A program made the translations under genes and the position numbers. Under the pieces are notes generated by a model. It was not told the DNA's origin, searched no databases, and worked only from the letters and a program-made list of their open reading frames with translations. From positions 1 to 27,710 of IMG/VR virus record IMGVR_UViG_3300044911_000723: 27,710 nucleotides of DNA. One strand, given 5' to 3'. Of the stretch, positions 4,675-7,057 are shown piece after piece. Every line of letters begins with the position of its first letter. Position 1 is the stretch's first letter. Source of the stretch: a virus.

Positions 4675-4833
4675 TCAAAGTTTTTGCTGTTTCACCTTTG
4701 CCAACACATTGTTGACTAGCTGGGCTAGATGGACAGCCTCGCCCACCCGCCCCTCAGAGCCTCTAAACGAGCCTAGAAACGCTTGAACGTCTTCAAGCAC
4801 CCGAACCACATCTTCTTTTGGAAAATCGCTCAT
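4675..4833 (-). CDS. 52-residue helical phage protein
   Basis: The protein reads MSDFPKEDVVRVLEDVQAF and ends LVNNVLAKVKQQKL. It is predicted to be a helical hairpin with a charged first helix. The longer open frame from 4869 starts inside the NNRCC array and gives a low-quality N-terminus, so I chose the ATG at 4833. A weak GAGACG ribosome site precedes it. Its stop lies just upstream of promoter cassette 2, and its 5' side abuts the array 4846-4920. Function is unknown; adjacency to the array may or may not be meaningful. Confidence 0.65.
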   Translation of the reverse strand: MSDFPKEDVVRVLEDVQAFLGSFRGSEGRVGEAVHLAQLVNNVLAKVKQQKL

Positions 4834-4845
4834 AGCGTCTCTATG

Positions 4846-4920
4846 CCCCCTTACCGTGCCTGTCCTCACCCTGCCCTACCTTGCCACGCCTGTCCGAACC
4901 GAGCCAGACCCCGCCAGACC
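4846..4920. repeat. NNRCC pentanucleotide array 1 (15 units)
   Basis: Fifteen consecutive 5-base units all end in CC, in perfect phase, and the third base is a purine in most (TTACC, GTGCC, TCACC, CTGCC, CTACC ...; exceptions CCCCC and two TGTCC). The first two bases vary freely. The array ends one base before the stop codon of the gene at 4922. On the transcribed minus strand it reads as GGYNN repeats. It is the smaller, detached member of the composite at 5553-6237. Confidence 0.9.
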
Positions 4921-4921
4921 T

Positions 4922-5536
4922 TTATTCTTGCGAAACGTCAAACTTAACAACATTGAATCGTCCGTAGGTCGGCCTGAAGTCGCCTATCCCAATCAGCCTG
5001 CCTGCCATGCTGAGGGTGTCCTGTAACCAGAACTCATCGATGTACTCAGGAGTCAGCACCATCAAGTCAAAGTCCAGCCTGTAGCCTGCCTTCATCGCCG
5101 GTCTAACGCGATTCACCCCTGCCCGTTGGATTACAACCCGGCGCTTGTCTTCGTAATCCCACTTCTCTTTGCCAAAACTCGCCAGATTCGTTAGGCTGAC
5201 TACGCCTGCCTTCGTCAGATCCATCGCTGACTTTCGTGGGCTTCTTGGGTCTTGTTTGAACTTTGCCGCCCAGATCACAGCCTGCCTCAGATACTCGCCG
5301 GGGCAGCACAACTCACCCTCATCGTTACGCCAGACGTAAGACTCAATGTCATCTGTCTTCTTTGCTGCTGAATTTTTTGCTGCCTTTGCTTTTGTCTCTA
5401 CTGCCTCACAATTCCATCGGTGAAACAGAAAGTCCGAACTACCTTGGATTGTTACATGCGCTGTGTACGGAAGACCGTACTCAATTGTGTCTCCACCACC
5501 ATTTGATACTTCTGCTACGTTTTTTACCTTAGCCAT
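4922..5536 (-). CDS. Conserved phage protein with RAMP/Cas7-like Gly-rich loop, embedded in NNRCC arrays
   Basis: This 204-residue protein belongs to a well-conserved but unnamed tailed-phage family; recognisable blocks are FLFHRWNCEAVE (37-48), ESYVWRNDEGELCCPGEYLR (65-84) and KQDPRSPRKSAMDL (94-107). Near the C-terminus, GRLIGIGDFRPTYGRF (179-194) resembles the glycine-rich G-G-x-R-x-x-G-x-G-R loop of RAMP-fold RNA-binding proteins such as Cas7/Csm3. That likeness is my pattern reading, not a proven homology. I chose the ATG at 5536 for its GGGAG ribosome site; the frame extends to 5569 but there runs into the repeat. NNRCC arrays flank it on both sides: one ends one base after its stop and one begins 17 bases upstream of its start. 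Confidence 0.85.
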   Translation of the reverse strand: MAKVKNVAEVSNGGGDTIEYGLPYTAHVTIQGSSDFLFHRWNCEAVETKAKAAKNSAAKKTDDIESYVWRNDEGELCCPGEYLRQAVIWAAKFKQDPRSPRKSAMDLTKAGVVSLTNLASFGKEKWDYEDKRRVVIQRAGVNRVRPAMKAGYRLDFDLMVLTPEYIDEFWLQDTLSMAGRLIGIGDFRPTYGRFNVVKFDVSQE

Positions 5537-5612
5537 TTTTTTCTCCCAAAAAGAGCCGTACCTCACCACGCCCCGCCTCGCCCCGCCATATCATGCCAGA
5601 CCGTGCCGAGCC

Positions 5613-5676
5613 CATTTGATGCTTACGCATCGCTCAACAGACTGATTCAATCCGTTGAACGCTGCATAGCAGCTCC
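5613..5676. ncRNA. Hairpin unit A of the composite repeat
   Basis: Three consecutive hairpins, given on plus. H1 is GATGC-ttac-GCATC (5618-5631). H2 is TCAAC (5634-5638) with GTTGA (5654-5658), plus an inner GA/TC and a nine-base loop CTGATTCAA (5642-5650). H3 is GCTGC-ata-GCAGC (5661-5673). H1 and H3 are near-identical to unit B, while the H2 stem differs but stays paired at the same positions. Confidence 0.7.
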
Positions 5677-5741
5677 ATACCTGACCTGACCGCGCCAGAG
5701 CATACCTGACCTCACCATAGCGAACCTTGGCTTACCGCACC

Positions 5742-5804
5742 AAACGATGCTTACGCATCGCATAGAGGGCTCTGTGAACCATCTATACGCTGCATAGCAG
5801 CTCC
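5742..5804. ncRNA. Hairpin unit B of the composite repeat
   Basis: H1 is CGATGC-ttac-GCATCG (5745-5760). H2 is ATAGA (5762-5766) with TCTAT (5782-5786), plus inner GG/CC and a nine-base loop CTCTGTGAA (5770-5778). H3 is GCTGC-ata-GCAGC (5789-5801). Relative to unit A, five H2 base pairs are changed with pairing kept, and both units have the same 1x1 mismatch. CTCC follows, then the next array. Confidence 0.7.
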
Positions 5805-5919
5805 TCACCAAACCCCACCGTGCCATACCAGACCGCACCCTGCCAAACCACGCCCCAGCGAACCTTGCCCTACCAAGCCGCGCCGAACCACGCCTCACCC
5901 AGTCCAACCAGACCGCACC

Positions 5920-5963
5920 TACTGGAAGACCAACTGTTGCCAACCGGCCTCCCGCTAGATGCC
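5920..5963. ncRNA. Hairpin unit C of the composite repeat (degenerate)
   Basis: It carries the loop sequence CTGTTGCCAA (5934-5943) found exactly in unit E and with one change in unit D. The flanking stem is imperfect (GG-A-G-CC against GG-C-T-CC with mismatches), and the closing H3-type hairpin is not clear. It looks like a decayed copy of the D/E type. Confidence 0.4.
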
Positions 5964-6020
5964 CCATACCTGACCTTGCCCCACCAGACCTTGCCGTGCC
6001 GTGCCGGAACATGCCCGACC

Positions 6021-6070
6021 CCATCGGATAAACGACTGCTGCCAATCGTTTAGCCGCTGTTGCCAGCTCC
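6021..6070. ncRNA. Hairpin unit D of the composite repeat
   Basis: TAAACGA (6029-6035) pairs with TCGTTTA (6046-6052) around the ten-base loop CTGCTGCCAA. The stem is extended past one A/G mismatch by CGG/CCG (6025-6027/6054-6056). An H3-type hairpin GCTG-ttgc-CAGC (6056-6067) and CTCC follow, then the next NNRCC array. Confidence 0.65.
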
Positions 6071-6120
6071 TCACCAAACCGCACCGCTGCTTGCCTATCC
6101 ACACCCGACCTAACCGCACC

Positions 6121-6177
6121 TGCAAACTAGATCGGAAGGATGACTGTTGCCAATCACCTATCCGCTGTAGTCAGCCC
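6121..6177. ncRNA. Hairpin unit E of the composite repeat
   Basis: An 11-position stem (6133-6143 with 6154-6164; two mismatches and one G-T) encloses the loop CTGTTGCCAA (6144-6153). H3 is GCTG-tagt-CAGC (6164-6175). Stem length, loop size and H3 position match unit D although much of the stem sequence differs. Confidence 0.6.
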
Positions 6178-6236
6178 TCACCGCGCCGTACCGCGCCTCA
6201 CCTAACCATGCCTCACCTAACACCGCCCCGCCAAAC

Positions 6237-6339
6237 CTCGACTTGCAATTCTTGCTCGATATGCAGACGGGTCGAGCACTCCGTCCATATTCCGACAGCT
6301 CCGCGTATGAAAGAGACTGTCGCACTACTGCACTTAGTG
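6237..6339. ncRNA. Hairpin unit F, closing the composite next to gene 6347
   Basis: Three consecutive inverted repeats lie between the last NNRCC array and the stop of the 6347 gene: CTCGAC/GTCGAG (6237-6242/6271-6276), CGACAG/CTGTCG (6293-6298/6317-6322) and CACTA/TAGTG (6323-6327/6335-6339). The primary sequence is unlike units A-E, but the three-hairpin layout is similar. No gene is seen here. Confidence 0.45.
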
Positions 6340-6346
6340 AAGGAGC

Positions 6347-6502
6347 CTATTCACCCAACATGTCCAACAACAAAGCCAGTGCCTCCTCGGGCGTAGAACC
6401 GTACTGCGCATAATCCTCAATAGCTTTACCTTCGGGATACGCCATCCAGCGATAGGGAGGCGCGTCATAAGGGTTCTGGATGTTTGGGGTCACGATGTAC
6501 AT
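6347..6502 (-). CDS. 51-residue conserved phage-type hypothetical protein
   Basis: This short ORF starts MYIVTPNIQNPYDAPPYRWM and ends with a helical STPEEALALLLDMLGE tail. The N-terminus is aromatic and proline-rich; no membrane segment or metal site is visible. A perfect GGAGG lies five bases before the ATG, and the ATG overlaps the TAA of the upstream gene (TAATG). It is the last gene before the transcription unit enters the hairpin/NNRCC region. The single-domain helix and strand pattern suggests a small adaptor or modulator, but this is open. Confidence 0.75.
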   Translation of the reverse strand: MYIVTPNIQNPYDAPPYRWMAYPEGKAIEDYAQYGSTPEEALALLLDMLGE

Positions 6503-6756
6503 TATTCCTCCGCGTAACGGTCGTCGAACATAGCGTCCAGCCGAGCGGTCTCTTTAGCCTCGTAAGCCATCACGTTCTGCTTGAGCTGCCCAATGGACTG
6601 GCGCACTGCCTTGATGAGCTGCTCAGCACCATCTGCTGACAGGTTGATGTAGGAACTGCCGTTAGCGTGCATGACGCTCAGCCAAACCCGGTCTTCAACA
6701 GCCGACACATAGACCGACTGGAAACGCTGAGTGCCTTCGATTTTGATGGATTGCAT
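6502..6756 (-). CDS. 84-residue phage hypothetical protein
   Basis: The protein begins MQSIKIEGTQRFQSVYVSAV and has a beta-rich first half (residues 1-45), then a long amphipathic helix (about 46-84: AEQLIKAVRQSIGQLKQ...). The frame is open 61 codons upstream, but that extension overlaps the previous gene antiphase and is Ser-rich nonsense. The ATG at 6756 has AGGGGG at a good distance and follows the stop of the 6770 gene by 13 bases. It belongs to the transcription unit that starts at cassette 3. Function is unknown. Confidence 0.8.
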   Translation of the reverse strand: MQSIKIEGTQRFQSVYVSAVEDRVWLSVMHANGSSYINLSADGAEQLIKAVRQSIGQLKQNVMAYEAKETARLDAMFDDRYAEE

Positions 6757-6769
6757 GATTACCCCCTGA

Positions 6770-7057
6770 TTAACGTGAAGTGACTTTGACGCTGAACACG
6801 GCGCTGGTCTTGGTGTAGCCAGCGAGCTGCTCTTCGGTGATACCAAGGTCAGCAGCCAGACGCTTCCAGTCGATGACGCTGCGGTTAGACTCGACCACCG
6901 TGGCTTTGAACAAAGAGCCCTCGAATACTTTGGAACCACCCGGCGCTGTAGCCGAGTCTTTGAGGTCGTCTTTGATTGCGGTAGCCTGCGCTTCCAGATC
7001 AGCGATCTGTGCCAGCAAGCCAGCTAGTGTGTCGATGGTGTTGATGTCGTTTTTCAT
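6770..7057 (-). CDS. 95-residue phage hypothetical protein with coiled coil
   Basis: The start MKNDINTIDTLAGLLAQIAD leads into a helical, probably coiled-coil segment (about 8-37). A short beta segment follows (VFEGSLFKATVVESNRSVID), then a C-terminal helix and strand ending SAVFSVKVTSR. This layout, with its ...D-W-K-R-L-A... element, recurs in uncharacterised phage proteins. The longer frame to 7135 starts upstream of the promoter; the ATG at 7057 is preceded by CAGGAGCGAATACC and by promoter cassette 3. It is the first gene of a unit that continues through 6756 and 6502 into the NNRCC composite. Confidence 0.8.
   Translation of the reverse strand: MKNDINTIDTLAGLLAQIADLEAQATAIKDDLKDSATAPGGSKVFEGSLFKATVVESNRSVIDWKRLAADLGITEEQLAGYTKTSAVFSVKVTSR

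Follow-up and report, generated by a model that had tools for sequence, protein, structure and literature searches.

A putative VIPR locus in an uncultivated phage: GGYNN guide-RNA arrays on both sides of a RAMP protein gene

The window analysed here is the whole 27,710-nucleotide stretch of a viral contig, IMG/VR record IMGVR_UViG_3300044911_000723. Its minus strand carries seven blocks of a phased five-base unit, GGYNN, arranged around a gene for a protein of 204 residues (vipr, 5536-4922). In minus-strand order, the blocks vr1 (6178-6237, 12 units), vr2 (6071-6120, 10 units), vr3 (5966-6020, 11 units), vr4 (5805-5919, 23 units) and vr5 (5677-5741, 13 units), each with a 3' tail, are followed by vr6 (5553-5612, 12 units), which ends 16 nt upstream of the vipr start codon. 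After vipr comes vr7 (4851-4920, 14 units), which starts beside the stop codon of that gene; the next small ORF opens with an ATG (4833) 17 nt beyond the end of this array. No Rfam family, tRNA or tmRNA was found in the window, and no repeat-spacer CRISPR array in 4800-6300.

The seven blocks hold 95 in-phase units, those of 4851-4920 and of six blocks within 5553-6237. The first-pass annotation, reading the other strand, had described about 98 phased NNRCC units; the phasing stands, and the count is corrected to 95. Its first array, placed at 4846-4920, exists but begins at 4851, as 4846-4850 is CCCCC and has no purine; the purine is indeed present in each of the 23 units of 5805-5919, although two of them (CCAGC and CAGTC) lack the CC. 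Read as GGYNN, the first G is present in 94, the second G in 87 and the pyrimidine in 91 of the 95 units; on the opposite strand CC is kept in 86 units, the purine in 91 and strict RCC in 83. All 16 NN dinucleotides occur, with an entropy of 3.83 of 4 bits, bearing out the earlier description of a near-invariant CC and a purine at position 3 beside highly diverse NN. There are 36 distinct pentamers among the 95 units, and not the uniform units expected of a slippage repeat. Strict unbroken runs of at least four units comprise 63 units in total, the longest being of 10 units; a first-order Markov model of the window was used to generate 300 random sequences, in which such runs held 0.08 units on average and 4 at most, with never more than one run of four.

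Behind vr1-vr5 (in 5553-6237, all blocks but vr6), the minus strand continues into tails of 46-64 nt that fold into hairpins and that had been overlooked before. The tails of vr1 (6121-6177), vr2 (6021-6070) and vr3 (5920-5965) form class B, for which the folds are of single sequences only, while those of vr4 (5742-5804, three hairpins) and vr5 (5613-5676) form class A, described by both fold and covariation. No tail was seen behind vr6, which runs into the vipr start region, or behind vr7, which runs into the next ORF; tail-less arrays abutting vipr are also found in two related loci, L193 and L194, and similar ones in L199, L201 and L203. For class A we aligned 14 full-length tails, two of them from the window, hand-picked from 27 distinct inter-array intervals of the clade. 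These tails form three hairpins with changes on both sides in 8 of 23 pairs, in the middle stem, and 98.1% of the cells are paired, compared with 28-52% in slid controls. Among 500 shuffles, the covariation score was reached by none, the number of covarying pairs by 2 and that of further pair types by 88, counts that are not probabilities because the rows are related. The class A tail covaries strongly.

The protein encoded between the arrays belongs to phrog_4652, a family of unknown function that also contains all 56 proteins of our alignment A1. The A1 profile matched the PDB chain 36pp_D, 'SUSP1 Vipr protein', with an E-value of 6.9e-41, the next matches being Csm5 at 0.5; the window protein alone matched SUSP1 Vipr at 1.9e-4. 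Its AlphaFold model has a mean pLDDT of 91.2, and both Foldseek and VIA-align ranked Cas7-like chains of type VII and Csm complexes at the top (best VIA-align score: Z 13.1, rmsd 4.4, 163 aligned). By profile and by model, the gene is predicted to encode a RAMP-fold (Cas7-like) protein that is a relative of the solved SUSP1 Vipr. The gene is part of the array system, a point missed in the first-pass annotation. Identities from Pfam were rejected, as four families each matched only one of the 56 A1 members, and so were those from PADLOC and NCBIfam, where the matches were weak, each family again covering one of 56 members and the best being Cmr6.

VIPR is described in a 2026 preprint (PMC13142463) as a phage system in which a Vipr RAMP acts with vrRNAs, each made up of 9-16 YNNGG repeats and a 3' tail. 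There, Vipr subunits sit on the GGY scaffold and work like a guide-coated RAMP filament, the NN bases pair with double-stranded DNA with one base skipped per unit, and competing phages are repressed. The preprint also distinguishes seven types, the SUSP1 and P. fulva systems being of type II, and names accessory vap genes; VIPR is reported to be a RAMP system that predates CRISPR and whose guide code is gapped. No other VIPR paper was found in the literature searched. Set against this description, the window shares the homologous RAMP protein, the GGY/NN repeats (10-14 units in six of the seven arrays), the guides in intergenic DNA on both sides of vipr, the 3' tail, predicted to be structured, on some arrays and the viral origin of the contig. 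It differs in that its Vipr, taken alone, is only distantly similar, two tail classes occur in one locus, tail-less arrays touch vipr, one array has 23 units and no vap gene was recognised. With Class 1 CRISPR-Cas systems (types III and VII) the window shares the RAMP fold predicted by AlphaFold; the guides there are single continuous spacers, unique between direct repeats, whereas here they are series of GGYNN units. TIGR-Tas, by the abstract of PMC12045711, likewise has phage-encoded tandem guide arrays, but its protein is Tas rather than a RAMP.

The association of arrays with vipr extends far beyond the window. Scanning IMG/VR with an 8-unit RCC pattern returned at least 120 stretches; among the matches listed, a relative of vipr is encoded in 88 of 120 loci, and in 87 of 89 (those 88 plus the window) the array closest to the gene has GGY on the sense strand of vipr. 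The two exceptions are L078 and L127 (arrays at 799-873 and 2723-2802). Since these loci were chosen by their arrays, a second set was fetched by protein, using a profile (A2) of nine Viprs, eight of which came from the window or the array-retrieved loci. This set consists of 108 loci, the best 80 of 267 viral relatives and 28 genome loci, among them Thermomonas flagellata and Alicyclobacillus fructus; the loci are not independent, falling into 73 groups at 95% Vipr identity (counting the window and L162), and a few are also in the array-retrieved set. GGYNN arrays of at least six units lie within 3 kb on the vipr sense strand in 104 of the 108 loci, RCC-sense arrays in none, and four Vipr loci have no array. 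The first-pass annotation had held that absence of the array at the same locus in relatives would point to neutral slippage, and the opposite was found; its reading of the RNA as (GGYNN)n is upheld. One locus, L029, has a single array of 142 phased units (6301-7010, 130 of them strict RCC) directly behind vipr, where the preprint gives a range of 9-16. In phage DSL-LC04 (L162, OR003939.1, 5712-5964), the relative of Vipr has 68% identity and bears the annotation of a helix-turn-helix regulator, and one 11-unit array is situated between complementary arms, as if in a hairpin loop.

None of the six neighbouring genes in the window was recognised as a vap gene, three belonging to PHROGs of unknown function and three being unmatched. 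In 22 of the 108 related loci, a helicase (family checked on three proteins) is encoded 298-814 nt downstream of vipr, as at 6130-7851 in L275 and alike in 21 others. This helicase is a candidate vap; none was seen at the corresponding place in the window.

Close relatives of the window differ in their guides. L192 is the same phage (99.77% identical over 10,536 nt) with identical arrays. L193 and L194 have one common set of arrays that is different from that of the window: none of 51 five-unit and one of 56 four-unit NN words are common to both, while 202 of 204 residues are the same in the L193 Vipr as in that of the window, with 556 of 612 bases unchanged, and the remaining aligned pieces are about 75-83% identical. 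Two of the three L193/L194 tails closely match window tails, whereas the middle stem of the third is different; the L193 vr6 retains five of the first six NN units of the window vr6. Guide content has been replaced between relatives while the tail types persist. Arrays may also be joined or split around a tail. The 23-unit array of L201 (and L202) corresponds to two successive arrays of L199, agreeing with the opening 13 units of one and the closing 7 units of its successor, with at most one mismatch per unit. By analogy with L201, the 23-unit vr4 is possibly two guides fused; either the joined or the split form may have come first.

If NN pairs with codon positions 1 and 2 and the wobble base is skipped, the NN dinucleotides should resemble the starts of codons. 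We compared 7504 units of 517 non-redundant guides from 188 loci with the six possible registers; four loci with low NN entropy (L044, L060, L062 and L065) were excluded from this comparison, from the motif test and from the later of the target searches in the local pool described below. Positions 1 and 2 of sense codons gave the best fit, by 239 nats over the next register, and won in 2000 of 2000 bootstraps by guide and in 2000 of 2000 by locus. Even for the seven guides of the window alone, this register won in 1993 of 2000 bootstraps. The fit is inexact, with r of 0.60 in an earlier set, likewise without the four low-entropy loci, where a mixture of both strands did slightly better. NN resembles codon positions 1 and 2, as predicted for a wobble-skipping code. 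The NN positions carry information, which the first-pass annotation had missed.

Taken together, we consider it highly probable (about 0.93) that the window holds a VIPR locus, in which GGYNN guide-RNA arrays act with a Vipr RAMP and NN specifies the DNA target. The relationship of its gene to SUSP1 Vipr places the locus in VIPR, as a new member at some distance from the type II systems that have been studied. The arrays, the family and fold of the protein, their linkage and shared strand, the class A covariation, the guide replacement and the codon-like NN come from the present analysis; transcription, formation of the complex, pairing with one skipped base and repression are modelled on PMC13142463. 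The minus strand would be transcribed into vrRNAs, in which structured tails would follow vr1-vr5. GGY would serve as a scaffold gripped by successive Vipr subunits; the proposal of a protein polymer bound every 5 nt, made in the first-pass annotation, comes closest of its suggestions to this mechanism, leaving aside the role of NN. Together, the NN pairs would spell out a DNA target of the form NNx NNx NNx, in which the skipped base is usually the wobble position of a codon. The complex of Vipr and vrRNA would then probably bind and repress genes with a matching sequence in rival phages, prophages or satellites.

Could the arrays be a neutral pentanucleotide microsatellite? Slippage would account for the tandem five-base period, for the varying lengths and for the joining or splitting of arrays in L199 and L201. 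It would not be expected to leave NN near maximal entropy with GG fixed, to place arrays at 104 of 108 protein-fetched loci always on one strand, or to make NN fit codon positions 1 and 2; we regard it as exceedingly improbable, in agreement with the earlier argument that three of the five positions are held. Hardly more credible is a structural nucleic-acid element, such as a G-quadruplex, an R-loop or a polymerase pause array: GG recurs every five bases on one strand as such an element would have it, but the link to one RAMP protein, the covarying tails and the codon-like NN are left unexplained.

A further possibility is that the units are RNA-binding sites for which NN is irrelevant and which regulate the mRNAs of vipr or its neighbours as a feedback sponge. 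The tail-less vr6 and vr7 abut vipr on both sides, as arrays do in L193 and L194 and similarly in L199, L201 and L203, which would suit such regulation. NN is non-random, however, and fits the first two positions of sense codons, and among relatives the guides have been exchanged for others, the tail types staying the same. We consider this explanation quite unlikely for the arrays as a whole; vr6 and vr7 could have such regulation as a second function.

For the guides of the VIPR locus in the window, no target was found: exact 8-unit cores of six of the seven guides (all but vr2) occur in IMG/VR, with no convincing extension. The core stretches number 3 for vr1, 8 for vr3, 6 for vr4, 27 for vr5, 11 for vr6 and 7 for vr7, and outside the core the agreement reaches at best 5 of 10 bases (vr5) and 4 of 8 (vr1). 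For vr2, the small local pool, the sole place searched, gave no target. Among 250 genomes from the order to which L274 (a Burkholderiales MAG) belongs, the full pattern of vr5 was absent and that of vr6 matched once, with three mismatches, within a 58-residue frame. The vr5 core with up to three mismatches gave 146 matches in 9 records, against 23 for the reversed control. One vr6 match lies in a primase gene (L182, 2-922), where nine consecutive units agree in 18 of 18 bases in codon register with LMIGEGVET, the start of the Toprim_3 domain; another is in a CsrA gene. The primase match stays a lead, because by our estimate several one-unit extensions are expected by chance among the 62 core matches. 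Walker A (2 observed against 0.27 expected, p 0.043) and Toprim (1 against 0.02, p 0.02) motifs appeared enriched post hoc in two of ten tests, not significantly so once corrected.

Searches with the guides of related loci gave two target leads. In a first search of 378 guides against 1.10 Mb of the local pool with skips of 0-3 bases, in which the top matches came from low-entropy arrays, a one-base skip gave no excess at 90% match (5 against 5 for shuffled guides) and 22 against 11 at 85%, the other skips giving 14 against 10, 19 against 18 and 14 against 12. In the later search, the one-base skip gave 8 matches, six of them from one guide family, compared with 1 and 3 for skips of 0 and 2. 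Guides of L275, L277, L278 and L245 spell V-[IM]-[HQ]-T-G-G-G in codon register and match the Walker A region of the DEAD/ResIII helicase downstream of vipr, in 23 of 28 bases in L250 (L275 guide) and 22 of 28 in L077; against their own helicases they agree in fewer, 19-20 of 28. A guide of Thermomonas flagellata (L273) matched three places in 2 of 296 family genomes, with agreement at 21 of 24 bases and no mismatch in the leading 8 of its 12 units, and its reversed control matched none. At all three places (L300, L301 and L302) the opposite strand reads MALPIITADQ in wobble register, and the matched ORF in L302 (889-2292), hit at the start of the gene, is that of a Sak4-like phage protein. 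As about 0.4 matches of the Thermomonas type are expected by chance by our estimate, both leads are suggestive only. Two Alicyclobacillus guides (L295) each matched in none of 41 family genomes.

Arrays also occur in records that appear to have no vipr. Thirty-two array loci lacked a nearby Vipr; setting aside the four of low NN entropy, L125, where further search found a Vipr, and five whose arrays lie no more than 55 nt from an edge of the DNA (L052, L053, L057, L075 and L080), 22 records were searched whole, and 19 of them gave no phrog_4652 match, a number that may include fragments and Viprs too diverged to be detected. The Vipr-less records include contigs of 45, 51, 56 and 80 kb and two of 105 kb, and examples of their arrays are L033 5129-5198, L041 9846-9915, L019 8664-8813, L082 569-1318 and L094 3618-3677. 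We tentatively suggest, as a minority possibility, that these are stand-alone guide arrays, shared or parasitic, which work in trans with the Vipr of another phage in the same cell.

The GGYNN repeats of this phage are thus best read as guide-RNA genes of a known and very recently described kind, VIPR, and the locus would add a distant Vipr clade in uncultivated phages. The resemblance of NN to codons gives independent statistical support for the wobble-skipping code. The replacement of guides between close relatives, together with arrays joined or split around a tail, bears on how new guides originate.
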